Below, in pieces: positions 8,971-44,413 of a DNA stretch of 64,000 bases (the stretch's first letter is position 1; every line of letters begins with the position of its first letter). The notes under the pieces were generated by a model. The model was not told the origin of the DNA. It saw only the letters and a list, made by a program, of their open reading frames with translations, and ran no database searches. Source of the DNA: Tessaracoccus rhinocerotis (GTDB lineage: Bacteria; Actinomycetota; Actinomycetes; Propionibacteriales; Propionibacteriaceae); the NCBI RefSeq assembly GCF_007197885.1, contig NZ_VKKG01000005.1:1-64000 (forward strand). The letters run 5' to 3'. The position numbers and the translations under genes are program-made.

Positions 8971-10421
8971 TCACCACGTGTTGACGTGGAGGTGGTCGTA
9001 ATGGTTCGCCGAATCCGAACCCCGATCCGCCATGTGCCGCCACCCCTCCCCATCACGGGCAACGTTCCAGATGTGGCCGTCCCAGATGATGTACTGGATG
9101 CCGAGCTGAGTCGCCCGGGACCGCAGATCAGCAGCCATCCGGTCACCGAGGTCACGACCCTCCGTCGACTTGTAGTCCGGGATCATGATGTCGATCGCCC
9201 TACCGGACGGGTGATCGTTCGTCGTGTCACGCCGATGCCCACCGATCGTGGTGATCTGCTCGTAGTTCGCCTTCACGTACCGGCCGATGTTGACGGTGGC
9301 CGGTTTCAGGCCAACCTCCCACCCTTCCGCCTGCGGCCCCGCGACCGCGTAGTACAGGAACAGGCCGGGATCTTTCGCGCGCGTGTCAGCGGGCTGCCGC
9401 CAACTCGACGTGTCCTGATGCTCAACAACCCACGCGAACGCCGGCGACCCAGGATCGAGCCTCACCGCCAAGCCCCACCCGAACGCGGCATGGAATCCGC
9501 CACCAGCTTGTGTCTGGTCGATGCGGGACACCCGTTCGGGCCGGCAGCCAGACGAACCTCCCCGGCGCCGTTCCCGAACCGTTTGTACTCCTCCGCGAGG
9601 ACCTCGAGGCTCTTCGCCGCGTCGCAGCGCAGCTGGACGCTCCGGCCGGCGACGCGGGCATCACACAACCCCGACGGGATGTCGCCGCTGCTGTGTCCAC
9701 CCCACGGGCCCGGCTCCACCAACGACAGGGTCCCGGTCGTGAACTGCGCGTTCCCGCCACCCCAACACCCCGCCAGGTTCGAGCCGCCATCGACTGGCAC
9801 GACGGTCCCGTCGATCGCCGCCAACAGGGCTTGCGCGACCGGAGTCCACGCCTCCGACATCGGATACGTCCACTTCGCCGGCACCTGCACCGCCACCGAG
9901 GTGCGCCACGGCTCAGCGGTGCGCCACTCCTTCTTCGCAAACACGCCAGGGATGCGGTACCCGACCGGTCCGGCGCCACCAGACGCTTTCACCGCAACCT
10001 TGTGGCCCTCGATGAACGTCAACGTCGCATACGGGATCGACTGCAGAATCTGCACGTTTTCGGCTTGGGTGGCGCCGTCGGCGTACCAGCCGACCTTCGT
10101 GCGCTGCTGGAACGGGCCAGCGTCCTCGTTCTCGTCCGGGTTCAACGCCGAAGCGTTCGTGTAGAACGTCGACTCCTGCGCCATCGTGATGAGCGCGATC
10201 AGGGCGAGGCGGTCCTTGTCCGCCGCCGACACACCAGGCCAGTTCGCGTTCCGGATCGTGGTCACCATCACGGCGGCGTTGTACTGCGCCTCCTTCGTGA
10301 CCGTCACCGACGCACCGTTCAGTTTCTTCAACCGCAGGTCGGTTGTGATCCCCGCCGCCGCTGCAGCAGCTTCCGAGTACGGGGTGTGCCGCATGGCCGG
10401 GTCGGCGTTGATGACCGACAA
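8971..10421 (-). pseudogene. Peptidoglycan hydrolase: lysozyme-like domain plus M15-like peptidase domain, frameshifted
   Basis: Two overlapping leftward frames make one protein. The 5' part (10421 to 9462, 319 residues) carries a transglycosylase/lysozyme-like segment (LIALITMAQESTFYTN, then DAGPFQQRTKVGW). The 3' part (about 9531 to 8971) starts abruptly at FGWGLAVRLDPGSPAF and ends in a metallopeptidase domain of the M15/ARB_07466 type, with DHPSGRAIDIMI (His and Asp ligands) and HYDHLHVNTW. A single frameshift between about 9465 and 9540 would join them. Upstream of the TTG at 10421 the frame stays open but collides with a membrane-protein fragment on the other strand, so the true N-terminus is probably gone as well. 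The C-terminal domain is a paralogue of the intact enzyme at 13601-14488. Confidence 0.6.
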
Positions 10422-11330: not shown

Positions 11331-12590
11331 GTGCCAGCGCCAGCCACCATCGCCCTGCCCCTTCGTCGTCGCGCAGCCGACCGCGCCAGAATTCCGCTGA
11401 GACGGCTGCTGGTCCTCACCCTGGCAGCTTTCGTGGTCGCCTCCCTCGGCCTCGTCGCCCGGACGGCGCCACCTGCGGCGGCCGACACCAGCAACGGCGC
11501 CTGGGTCTACAGCACCCCCGGCAGCCACTCGGTCAACGGCAGGGAGTGGCGGACATCGTGCGAGCAGTACTCGACCACCGTGTTCCGCTGCCGCACCGAC
11601 ATCCTCGCGCGGACCGTCGTCGTCTCGGGTGGCCGCTATGTCGAACGCAACTCCTATGTGTTCAACAACCTGACCTACCTGGCCTCGCCCCGCAAGAACT
11701 GGGCCGGCAACCCCTTGGCGCAGAACAAGGAGTGGACCGCCGACGACGGCCGCAGGTGGCGCACCGAGTGCGACACCCCGCAGACGGGACGCGACGGCTG
11801 CCGCAGCTGGGCCATGGCCACTGTCGTGGCCAAGCGCGGGAGTGCATTCGTGCAGGAGACGAAGATGGTCTTCAACAACATCGTGCTGTTCGCCGACGGC
11901 GTGATCGCGCGCCCTGGGACGGCGCGGCAGTCCTATGTCTCCCGGGAGCTGATCGGTCACTCGGTCGAGGGCCGTGAGCTGTGGGCCTACCAGGTGGGGG
12001 ATCCCGACGCCGACAACGTGGCACTGGTCCTGGGCCAGATGCACGGCGAGGAGCCTGCCGGGACGCTCAGCGCCTGGGGAATGGTGAACGACCACCGGGA
12101 GGTCTCCGGAGTCCAGCTGTGGGTAGTCCCCAGCATGAACCCTGACGGCCACGCCAGGAATCGGCGCCAGAACTCCAACGGCGTCGACCTGAACCGCAAT
12201 TGGCCCGTCAACTACGAGCAGAACGAGAAGGGCAACCGCTACTACTCCGGCACCGGACCGCTGAGCGAGCCGGAGTCACAGGCGATGGCCGCCTTCATCG
12301 AGAAGATCCGGCCGGACCGGATGGTCTCCATCCACCAGCCGCTGACGGGTGTCGACAACTACAGGATCAAGGACCGCGGCCTCCACGACGCCCTGGTGCG
12401 GGAACTCGGGCTGCCGTCGCGCAGCCTCGACTGCGGGGGTGAGTGCCGCGGCACCATGACGCAGTGGGTCAACGCCACCACCGACGGGGCCGCCATCACG
12501 ATCGAGTACTCCGCCAACGTCAGCGACCACTACGCCGCCATCACCGCCCGAGACGGCTTGGTCCGAGCGCTGGGCGGCACCTATTCCTGA
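11331..12590 (+). CDS. Secreted M14 zinc carboxypeptidase with N-terminal CW-rich repeat module
   Basis: 419 residues. A signal peptide covers about residues 1-50 (RRLLVLTLAAFVVASLGLV, cleavage near AAA-DT). Residues 58-190 form the module shared with two other proteins in this window (GREWRTSC, RCRTDI, YVFNNLTYL; then GRRWRTEC, GCRSWA, MVFNNIVLF). The M14 domain follows, with zinc ligands His238 and Glu241 in GQMHGEE and His335 in SIHQP, the VDLNRNWP substrate-binding motif, and catalytic Glu392 in ITIEYSA. The active site is complete. Bacterial members cleave peptidoglycan peptides or other peptides outside the cell; target unknown. GTG start follows a -10 box and is probably leaderless. 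Its 3' end overlaps the convergent SDR gene by ten bases. Confidence 0.88.
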   Translation: MPAPATIALPLRRRAADRARIPLRRLLVLTLAAFVVASLGLVARTAPPAAADTSNGAWVYSTPGSHSVNGREWRTSCEQYSTTVFRCRTDILARTVVVSGGRYVERNSYVFNNLTYLASPRKNWAGNPLAQNKEWTADDGRRWRTECDTPQTGRDGCRSWAMATVVAKRGSAFVQETKMVFNNIVLFADGVIARPGTARQSYVSRELIGHSVEGRELWAYQVGDPDADNVALVLGQMHGEEPAGTLSAWGMVNDHREVSGVQLWVVPSMNPDGHARNRRQNSNGVDLNRNWPVNYEQNEKGNRYYSGTGPLSEPESQAMAAFIEKIRPDRMVSIHQPLTGVDNYRIKDRGLHDALVRELGLPSRSLDCGGECRGTMTQWVNATTDGAAITIEYSANVSDHYAAITARDGLVRALGGTYS

Positions 12591-13600: not shown

Positions 13601-14488
13601 TCAGCTGTCGTAGGTGTTGATGTGGACGTGGTCCAGGTGGTTGGAGGTGTGGCTCCCGCGGTCACCCATCGGACGCCAGCCCTCGGAGTTGCGGGAGACG
13701 GACCAGATCCGCTGGTCCCAGATGATGTAGTCGATGCCGAAGTCCGAGGCGTGGGCCTTGTAGTACAGGGCGATCTCCCAGCCCAGCAGGATGCCGCTGT
13801 CGGTGCGCCAGTTCGGGATCATGACGTCGACGGCGCGGCCGGCGGGGTGGTCCGGGGTGACGTCGCGACGCCAGCCGTACATCGTCTTGATCTGGGGGTA
13901 GTTCGCCCAGACGTGGCGGATGACCTTCTTGGTGTTCTCGTTGGTGTAGTCAAGACCGCTGGAGTTGCCACGGTTGAGTGACTCCGGCGGGTTGGTGATC
14001 TTGCCGTTGACCGTCAGCACGCCGCTGTCCTGGTCGAACGTCGAGGGGGGTAGCTGCGCGGTGCCGGGGGTGAAGTACACGATGTTGTTGAACACCCACT
14101 TGTCGCCGGCGAAGATGAACGAGCGGCAGGCGTTGGCGCCGGTCCAGGAGTCATTGCAGGAGGTCACCCACTGGCGGCGGTCGGAGGTGAAGAAGCCCGA
14201 CTTGGCGAGGTTGTTGCCGTACCAGTTGGCGTGGTCGGTGGCGAGGTAGGTGAGGTTGTTGAACACCCACTTGCCCTCGGACTTGATCTCGGCGCGGCAG
14301 CGGGTGATCCGCGCGTCGTACTTCGCGCAGGTCGTGTGCCACTCCCTGCCGTTCACCGTGTGGTAGCCGGGGGTGGTGTAGACGTTGACGTCGTCGTCGG
14401 CTGTCGCCGTGGCGGGGTTCGTGAGGATTGTGAGGCTGGCGACCAGCGCCAGCAGCAGCGCCGGTAGCGCGAACAGTTTCCTGGTCAA
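13601..14488 (-). CDS. Secreted M15-like peptidoglycan peptidase with N-terminal CW-rich repeat module
   Basis: 295 residues starting at TTG 14488, preceded by CGGAG at good spacing; upstream codons lack a signal. Signal peptide KLFALPALLLALVASL, cleavage near ATA-DDD. Residues about 35-150 are the shared module (GREWHTTC, RCRAEI, WVFNNLTYL; DRRQWVTSC, ACRSFI, WVFNNIVYF). Residues about 185-295 are an ARB_07466/M15-type domain: DHPAGRAVDVMI gives a His and an Asp ligand, and LDHVHINTYDS gives the third. It would cut cross-links or stem peptides in the wall. The same catalytic domain occurs in the frameshifted gene at 8971-10421, and the same module in the M14 peptidase about 1.7 kb away. Confidence 0.8.
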   Translation of the reverse strand: MTRKLFALPALLLALVASLTILTNPATATADDDVNVYTTPGYHTVNGREWHTTCAKYDARITRCRAEIKSEGKWVFNNLTYLATDHANWYGNNLAKSGFFTSDRRQWVTSCNDSWTGANACRSFIFAGDKWVFNNIVYFTPGTAQLPPSTFDQDSGVLTVNGKITNPPESLNRGNSSGLDYTNENTKKVIRHVWANYPQIKTMYGWRRDVTPDHPAGRAVDVMIPNWRTDSGILLGWEIALYYKAHASDFGIDYIIWDQRIWSVSRNSEGWRPMGDRGSHTSNHLDHVHINTYDS

Positions 14489-14674
14489 GGTGGTTCTCCG
14501 GGGTGAGAGGGCTGGCGCGACCGGCAGCCCGTGGGCAGGGATCACAGCCGCGGCGACTTCCCCCGTGCGCCGGGACCTGCAGTGGTACCGGCAGTGCCTG
14601 GTGACTGCGGATGCCACACACGATAGGCCAATCCTGACCACAGTGCGGGGCTGCGCCGCATTCGTCGGCGCTGG

Positions 14675-16091: not shown

Positions 16092-18128
16092 ATGAGTGGA
16101 GTCATCACCGTCCGCCGCCCAGACTACGCGGAACAGGTTGAGCTGACCACCACGACCACCGGACTGGACATCTTCGGCACCGACAGGACGGTCGTCGCAA
16201 TGCGCGTCGGCGAGGAGATCCTCGACCTGCAGCGCGAGTTGGGCGACGGCGACGTCGTCGAGCCGGTCCTCGTGGACAGCCCGGAGGGCCTGGCGATCCT
16301 GCGCCACTCCGCGGCCCACGTGACCGCGCAGGCCGTCCAGAACCTGCACGGGGAGGCGAAGCTCGGCATCGGCCCGCCCATCGTCGACGGCTTCTACTAC
16401 GACTTCGAGACCGCACCCCTCACGCCCGAGGACCTGAAGGCCATCGAGAAGCAGATGGGCCGGATCGTGAAGGAGAAGCAGCGCTTCGTGCGTCGCGCCG
16501 TCTCGGACGACGACGCGCGTGCCGAACTCGCGGCCGAGCCCTTCAAGCTCGAGCTCATCGCCGACAAGGGCAGCGCCAGCGATGACGACGGCTCCTCCGT
16601 CGAGGTCGGTGCCGGCGAGCTGACCATCTACGACAACGTCCGACGCGACGGGTCGGTGGCCTGGAAGGACCTGTGCCGCGGTCCCCACGTGCCCAACACC
16701 GGCTACCTCGGCAACGGCTGGGCCCTGACCCGGTCGTCGGCCGCCTACTGGCGCGGTGACCAGAGCAACGCCGGCCTGCAGCGCGTCTACGGCACCGCGT
16801 GGGCGACCAAGGAGGAGCTCCAGGCATACAAGACCCGCCTGGAGGAGGCCGCCAAGCGCGACCACCGCAAGCTCGGCCAAGAGCTCGACCTGTTCAGCTT
16901 CCACGAGATCGTCGGATCCGGCCTGCCGCTGTTCCACCCCCTCGGGGGCGTCATCAAGCGCGAGATGGAGGACTACGTCCGCGCCCGGCACATCGAGGAG
17001 GGTTTCGACTACGTCGGCACCCCTCACATCGCCAAGGAGGAGCTCTTCTACACCTCCGGGCATCTTCCGTACTACGCCGACGGCATGTTCCCGCCGCTGC
17101 TGGAGGACGCGGAGCGCGATGAGCAGGGCAACGTGGTCAGGGGCGGCCAGGCCTACCGGCTGAAGGCGATGAACTGCCCGATGCACAACCTGATCTTCTC
17201 CTCGCGCGGCCGCTCCTACAGGGAGCTGCCGCTGCGGTTCTTCGAGTTCGGAACCGTCTACCGCGACGAGAAGTCCGGGGTGGTGCAGGGCCTGACCCGC
17301 GTGCGCTCGATCACGCAGGACGACTCCCACAGCTACGTGGCCAAGGAGCAGGCTCCCGACGAGGTGCGCCACCTGCTGCGCTTCATCCTGTCGCTGCTCA
17401 ACGACTTCGGCATGACCGACGTCGCGCTCGAGGTCTCGACCCGTGACGAGGACGGCAAGAAGAAGGACAAGTTCATCGGCTCCGACGCCCAGTGGGACGA
17501 GGCGACCGCCATCCTGCAGCAGATCGCCGACGAGTCCGGGCTGCCCGTGGTGGCCGACCCGGGTGGCGCCGCCTACTACGGGCCGAAGATCTCGATCCAG
17601 GCCCGGGACGCCATCGGACGCACCTGGCAGATGTCCACCATCCAGTACGACTTCAACCAGCCCGAGCGGTTCCAGCTCCAGTACACCGCCAGCGACGGCT
17701 CGCACCAGCAGCCGGTCATGATCCACTCGGCCAAGTTCGGCTCGATCGAGCGGTTCATGGGCGTGCTGATCGAGCACTACGCGGGCGCGTTCCCGGCTTG
17801 GCTGGCACCCATCCAGGTGGTGGCCATCCCGGTGGCCGGCGAGTTCGACGAGTACCTGGGTGGCGTCGTCGCGCAGTTGCGCGCGGCCGGTGTCCGGGTG
17901 GAGTTCGACACCTCCGACGACCGCTTCCCCAAGAAGATCCGCAATTCGGCCAAGCTCAAGGCGCCGTTCGTGCTGATCGCCGGCGGCGAGGACCGCGACG
18001 CGGACGCGGTCTCGTTCCGGTTCCGCGACGGATCGCAGCGCAACGGTGTCCCCGTCGCCGAGGCAGTCGCGGAGATCGTCGGGTTCATCGCCTCGCGCTC
18101 CAACGAGTCCCCGACGGCGAATGCCTGA
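16092..18128 (+). CDS. thrS: Threonine-tRNA ligase
   Basis: 678 residues, normal length. It begins with a degenerate TGS-like region (1-65), then the editing domain with the HxxxH zinc-type motif in [12 protein letters not shown], the class II catalytic core with motif 2 in [13 protein letters not shown], and the C-terminal anticodon-binding domain ([16 protein letters not shown] to the end). Charges tRNA-Thr in the cytoplasm. ATG 16092 is supported by AAGGAGA at 16081-16087. It heads an operon: its last codons overlap the HIT gene start by eight bases, as in the mycobacterial thrS-HIT-pgsA-patA-pimA cluster. Confidence 0.97.

Positions 18129-38164: not shown

Positions 38165-44413
<6,249 letters not shown>

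Follow-up and report, generated by a model that had tools for sequence, protein, structure and literature searches.

The C-terminal domain of type IX secretion belongs to Bacteroidota and, as far as is known, is always placed at the C-terminus. Two-blade lectins such as RSL from Ralstonia trimerise into a beta-propeller. To our knowledge, how actinobacteria that export dozens of enzymes keep these enzymes on the cell is poorly known. In Firmicutes, the WxL domain is reported to attach to peptidoglycan, to possess conserved Trp motifs and to occur in many surface proteins, with a C-terminal place in the large WxL proteins (PMC9772566, PMC10599100). In this study, we analyzed a stretch of 64,000 nucleotides from Tessaracoccus rhinocerotis (hereafter, the window), in which three carrier proteins possess related modules (Table 1).

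A preliminary description of the window had proposed that an M14 peptidase, an M15-like peptidase and an amylopullulanase share one module. When the M14 module was used as a query, the other two window copies were found with E values of 2.4e-37 (56% identity) and 9.3e-20 (52% identity). Therefore, chance likeness is excluded and the three proteins do have one module in common. The segments encoding the described module are 11502-11891 (plus strand), 14108-14383 (minus strand) and 44006-44407 (plus strand), and the limits in Table 1 agree with these to within one codon. The module is approximately 94 to 135 residues long across the three proteins, and the M15-like copy is shortened, the seed alignment showing gaps in each of its two halves. 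Against the murein tripeptide amidase MpaA, the M14 carrier scored 74 of 157 bits, which is under the NCBIfam cut-off. The label "M15-like" is our reading of an HPAGRAVDVM...DHVHIN motif, and the Pfam scan gave no family for this carrier. In addition, two overlapping open reading frames are present at window positions 8971-10421 on the minus strand, for which a Pfam scan gave no family. One of them (8971-9531) encodes a module-free M15-like protein with 52% identity to the catalytic part of the window M15-like carrier; the second contains a TMAQESTFY...GPFQQR stretch and reads as transglycosylase-like. These two frames are possibly one gene split by a frameshift.

Table 1. Module copies, linker and carrier proteins in the window
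Feature	Position	Strand	Remarks
Secreted Zn carboxypeptidase (carrier)	11331..12590	+	Peptidase_M14 PF00246, E 2.5e-21
Module copy of the M14 peptidase	11502..11891	+	Directly behind signal peptide; 183 bits against own-genome profile
M15-like (D-Ala-D-Ala carboxypeptidase-like) secreted protein (carrier)	13601..14641	-	Named by motif
Short-form module copy of the M15-like peptidase	14105..14386	-	Behind signal peptide; 98 bits
Amylopullulanase (carrier)	38165..44413	+	Alpha-amylase PF00128, three X25 PF22058 stretches, pullulanase TIGR02103
Ser/Pro/Glu-rich linker ahead of the C-terminal module of the amylopullulanase	43880..44002	+	Read from sequence
Module copy at the extreme C-terminus of the amylopullulanase	44003..44407	+	One residue ahead of stop

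The majority sequence of the module starts with D-x-Y-x-T-P-G-x-H-x-V-N-G-R-x-W-x-T-x-C-E-P-Y-S-Q-T-x-R-C-x-T-x-I-W-A-T, continues with W-x-F-N-N-L-T-Y ... W-x-x-N-P-L-G and ends with D-G-R-x-W-R-T-E-C-D-T ... T-G-x-N-G-C-R-S ... W-V-F-N-N-x-V-R-F. The motif strings given in the preliminary description hold, except for "RCR", which in the wider family is more often RC-x. The two halves, each of about 60 residues, are homologous to each other (hhalign probability 98.8, E 7e-17, 52 columns). We predicted the structure of the window stretch 43997-44410, which is the amylopullulanase copy, with AlphaFold2 and a 91-row alignment. The resulting model is all-beta, with eight strands, four per half (mean pLDDT 93.8, pTM 0.82). 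A conserved Cys pair in each half (residues 22/31 and 92/102 of the model) flanks the turn between strands 2 and 3; therefore, the natural inference from the model is one hairpin disulfide per half. Exactly four Cys residues are present in 61 of 64 module rows, two rows being cut duplicates. Strand 2 of either half shows an alternating R-x-W-x-T-x-C pattern, whose residues do not vary among the 91 rows and form a candidate binding or core face. Weak structural matches were obtained on about residues 7-63 of the model, and several of these are what we take to be beta-propellers (levansucrase, inulinase, GH43 enzymes, NirN and CyRPA).

No Pfam or PDB-sequence family covers the module. When 60 module copies were compared with Pfam-A by hmmscan, 13 families were matched at E<=1 by any copy, and CBM, WxL and SH3 families were not among them; a WxL model exists in Pfam. 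No NCBIfam family lay on the module in protein P0001 or in P0002 (the window M15-like carrier); for P0003, the matches considered are the best 25 of 38. A search of the open-access literature found no publication on the module. In the preliminary description no named family had been recognised, and here too there was no confident match to a described domain in Pfam or among PDB sequences.

Three copies, the number first given, proved far too low: the 3.55-Mb genome contains 66 module matches. The own-genome profile gave 62 strong modules (>=95 bits) in 61 frames. The module ends 1-3 residues ahead of the stop codon in 42 of the 62, and the other 20 are not C-terminal. Judged by the preceding sequence, most of these 20 follow a signal peptide. 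They also include the second module of a tandem, a module that ends 68 residues ahead of the stop (C23:25669) and a module in a seemingly broken frame (C46:260873). In 32 of 43 C-terminal rows (one a cut duplicate), Pro, Ser, Thr and Glu together make up at least half of a 40-residue stretch ahead of the module, and the share of these four residues is 57% ahead of C-terminal modules versus 27% in protein bodies. As a crude sign of a signal peptide, counted without a control, a strongly hydrophobic 12-mer (mean >=1.8) is present within the first 300 residues in 50 of 64 carrier frames. When "not C-terminal" was mapped as a label onto a tree of these modules, it required 8 changes, at least 6 of them forced, and none of 500 shuffles was as low; two of the 20 labelled rows, namely C46:260873 and C23:25669, contribute part of this number. 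Therefore, copies have switched ends several times while keeping some clustering. One deep group of 12 contains 10 non-C-terminal modules and includes those of M14, NlpC/P60, YkuD (two), DPBB_1 and M15-like proteins.

Partial copies also occur. Three frames (C1:212341-212946, C46:259536-260633 and C12:611313-612566; L060, L043 and L031) end in the second half-module only, covering profile positions from 61-72 to 133; these are either modules of one repeat or remnants. Two further frames of 66 and 74 residues (C23:276098-276295 and C1:975361-975582; L061 and L050) contain short pieces of the module and are apparent remnants of decayed carriers. Carrier genes can lie in clusters: at L038 6388-15662, two GH43 carriers lie side by side, next to a diverging third carrier that has a 5'-nucleotidase C-terminal domain, and all three possess C-terminal modules.

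The search outside the three genes found the pattern in the own genome and in relatives within the genus. The module is present in 15 of 39 Tessaracoccus/Arachnia genomes (66, 63, 58, 48, 48, 46, 42, 40, 37, 34, 29, 16, 15, 11 and 1 copies), and 24 genomes have none. The names in this genus set are Tessaracoccus bendigoensis, T. antarcticus, T. coleopterorum, T. massiliensis, T. lapidicaptus, sp. OS52 and uncultured Arachnia. Presence in the genus is thus near all-or-none, which suggests dependence on one ligand or receptor. We constructed an rpoB tree of 32 of the 39 genomes, in which 13 of the 15 module-bearing genomes were kept; G748, G348, G013, G297 and G006 had no rpoB match, and in G225 and G014 the gene is in pieces. 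The module label changes 8 times on this tree, where well-supported branches force at least 5 of the changes and 46 of 500 shuffles were as good; therefore, the module is patchy in the genus. For example, G022 (11 copies) stands beside G023 (none) at full support, and a well-supported clade of four close relatives has 34-48 copies or none. These counts led us to reject a single origin in the genus by vertical descent. The rpoB tree shows a patchy trait and fits gain and loss alike. ThrS was dropped as a tree marker after a first trial because the genus holds two divergent types. The 37 full-length or nearly full-length genus matches to the window ThrS (16887-18089) are 88-100% or 65-67% identical to it. 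Both types include module-bearing and module-free genomes, and this looks like replacement or transfer.

The spread of the module was also followed in wider samples. It was found in 9 of 41 genomes of relatives and in 14 of 391 genomes of the order sample; the latter belong to one of 40 genera, and the other 39 genera gave no match at E<=1e-5. In the class sample, 7 of 394 genomes matched at E<=0.01, including the own genome and a weak match in G112 (E 0.008). This sample contained a small family (f31, the family of G453) and a fragment at a contig end in family f24. In the phylum sample, the combined profile matched 2 of 396 genomes, the own genome and G1071. We took the G1071 match as chance (E 6e-4, three stops inside). 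Alignment queries of the order, class and phylum samples scored 10 candidates per genome. The module on a phage endolysin would have strengthened the case for wall binding, but no such protein was found. Among viral contigs, 80 pattern matches were obtained and none was confirmed, and phages and plasmids gave no module match. An origin from phages or plasmids was therefore rejected.

The strict C-terminal end of the 42 modules is a point against wall binding, because it also suits a sorting or attachment signal. By analogy with type IX secretion, the module would then be read by a dedicated export, processing or transpeptidase machine, and the near all-or-none counts (none in 24 of 39 genomes, one in one genome and 11-66 in 14) fit one trans factor of this kind. 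However, the 20 other modules, most of them behind a signal peptide and one in a tandem pair, speak against such a signal. Moreover, the conservation is that seen in a folded domain (pLDDT 93.8), which only 1-3 residues follow, and sortases occur regardless of modules. We consider this explanation improbable. A sortase family is present in 39 of 39 genus genomes, and the idea of the module as a sortase replacement was rejected on this ground. Furthermore, none of the 61 carrier frames has a sortase-type tail (LPXTG-like motif, hydrophobic stretch and positive tail); two loose LPXTG-like matches in the last 60 residues both lie inside an enzyme domain without a membrane stretch.

The carriers were then compared with Pfam (52 of 64 own carrier frames, >=50 bits). 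Eighteen of the 52 are glycoside hydrolases, every one with its module at the C-terminus: GH43 (six), GH10 and GH20 (two each), GH53, GH59, GH101, GH127, GH30, GH35, GHL10 and GH13, the last being the window pullulanase. Further carriers are subtilase (S8), GDSL lipase, 5'-nucleotidase C-terminal, metallophosphatase, endo/exonuclease-phosphatase, CAP, glucose/sorbosone dehydrogenase-like (GSDH), C5-epimerase, LRR, PKD/VWA and DUF4185 proteins, and several scanned frames have no Pfam family. At least seven carriers of the own genome act, or are likely to act, on peptidoglycan (M14, M15-like, M15_4, YkuD, DPBB_1, NlpC/P60 and M23). Beyond the own genome, we read one frame of G019 and ten of G022. 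In G022 (Tessaracoccus lapidicaptus), five of eight scanned carriers are peptidoglycan enzymes, namely M23, glucosaminidase, DPBB_1, M15_4 and YkuD proteins. Non-covalent wall-binding domains are expected both on peptidoglycan enzymes and on exported proteins of other kinds within one cell, and the module shows this distribution. Its occurrence at either end of proteins with only export in common supports the earlier view of a portable, non-catalytic part. The 18 glycoside hydrolases, together with the conserved Trp, Arg and Asn positions, might also point to a carbohydrate-binding role, in which the module would direct its carriers to external substrates, for example starch or xylan. The substrates of the carriers differ, however, and include protein, nucleotides and peptidoglycan. 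In addition, among the 18 glycoside hydrolases there are at least 10 with a different domain of a carbohydrate-binding type above the Pfam cut-off (CBM_4_9, CBM_6, CBM9_1, F5/8, NPCBM, ricin-B or laminin-G); therefore, a module for substrate binding would duplicate this function. Since no CBM was among the 13 matched Pfam families either, we regard this explanation as very unlikely.

Orthologues of the M14 carrier (E<=1e-20) are present in 8 of the 39 genus genomes. The module stands ahead of the catalytic domain in all four orthologues from module-bearing genomes (G000, G153, G185 and G101) and in none of the four from module-free genomes. In G079, G021 and G012, all module-free, one or two repeats in that place match N-terminal repeats of M15-like proteins (best E values 2e-13, 4e-14 and 2e-11, respectively, against ten M15-like proteins). 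Pfam recognised three SH3_3 stretches in each of two M15-like proteins of module-free genomes (E 2.6e-27 and 2.7e-29), but did not recognise the M14 repeat itself. We presume that these SH3-like repeats bind the wall. The fourth module-free orthologue (G017) has other repeats, which do not match the SH3 regions, and the rpoB tree places G021 and G079 as very close sisters. Therefore, the domain swap rests on about two independent cases. In seven M15-like proteins without the module, one to four SH3-type repeats were seen by eye. The best M15-like hit bears the module in 4 of 30 genomes with the locus read (G000, G153, G196 and G013). Because the best hit in 11 other module-bearing genomes has no module, this difference may be one between paralogues. 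The gene order M14, M15-like, ThrS is common to the own genome and G153 (window 14641 side; G153:C1:1156354-1161389).

In the distant family f31, each of four of the five genomes has a single gene cluster with three module copies. By our reading, the carriers in all four are an amidase, a SpoIID protein and an M15-like protein, each with its module at the C-terminus or close to it. A Pfam comparison of one protein per type confirmed Amidase_2 and SpoIID and gave no family for the M15-like protein. In a 20-row alignment of genus and f31 modules, four Cys and two Gly are invariant; most G-R-x-W cores are kept in f31. The FNN motifs are not kept, so the genus and f31 modules may bind different things. 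A divergent gene adjoins the f31 cluster in the two genomes examined (L281 12895-14484 and L282 13151-14629). It reads as a LytR-CpsA-Psr glycopolymer ligase, and the two products are 55% identical to each other.

These data also bear on protein docking, in which a surface scaffold or S-layer-like receptor would gather the tagged proteins much as dockerins are gathered. Such a receptor would account for the near all-or-none distribution and the large number of clients, 18 of 52 of which are glycoside hydrolases. On the other hand, a non-systematic search found no candidate scaffold, the clients include peptidoglycan enzymes and f31 showed nothing else, and the SH3-like repeats in the same place on M14 orthologues suggest a wall ligand. 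We think docking of this type doubtful, with only a small chance of being right.

We propose, with a probability of roughly 70%, that the module is an all-beta two-half domain that binds the producer's own wall non-covalently and has been co-opted as a general surface tag. Wall binding is the simplest account because the carriers are exported and have little else in common, the module frequently follows a flexible linker, SH3-like repeats replace it in three of the four M14 orthologues from module-free genomes and its most distant relatives stand on peptidoglycan enzymes. We infer that the module binds at all and that its ligand is a wall polymer, which would be peptidoglycan or a glycopolymer attached to it. 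Its first job would have been the targeting of peptidoglycan enzymes; in the Tessaracoccus/Arachnia lineage, it may later have been copied onto dozens of exoenzymes for retention. These would thereby stay on the cell without sortase attachment, held off the wall by the Pro/Ser/Thr/Glu linkers. The computed evidence supports the putative binding or surface-retention role suggested in the preliminary description, and the carriers and the domain swap favor a wall ligand over an external substrate.

A wider reading joins these points and is tentative, since we would sooner expect some part of it to fail than the whole to hold. The module may be an address label for one wall polymer or receptor in some lineages, with the display system gained or lost as a unit and carriers able to switch anchors to SH3-like repeats. 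It would represent a new fold family of two disulfide-stapled blade-like repeats. Its first use would have been on peptidoglycan enzymes encoded next to the gene of a wall-glycopolymer ligase, and general exoenzyme retention would have come later. One module labels about sixty exported proteins in one genome and has no Pfam family; with its profile, about 550 matches could be annotated across the 15 module-bearing genomes of the genus. The rpoB clade of four close relatives is a natural experiment for finding the ligand, and the module could serve as a surface-display tag.

As a functional kind, a wall-binding or surface-retention domain is known; for the module family itself, no name was found. 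Like the WxL domain, the module has conserved Trp residues and sits on many exported proteins, often at the C-terminus. In contrast to WxL, its motifs differ, it consists of two homologous halves with two Cys residues each, it is also used at the N-terminus and it belongs to another phylum. Bacterial SH3 repeats (SH3_3) resemble it in position: SH3-like repeats take the same place on M14 orthologues in three of four module-free genomes, and SH3_3 repeats are N-terminal to the same catalytic domain in M15-like proteins. In sequence the two are unlike, the best BLAST match of any module to ten M15-like N-terminal regions being E 0.004 over 25 residues. The module resembles the type IX C-terminal domain in that dozens of unrelated exported proteins of one genome carry such a domain at their C-termini; however, the module is also N-terminal and tandem (20 of 62 not C-terminal), and its host is an actinobacterium. 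Finally, like two-blade lectins such as Ralstonia RSL, the module has two homologous four-stranded halves.
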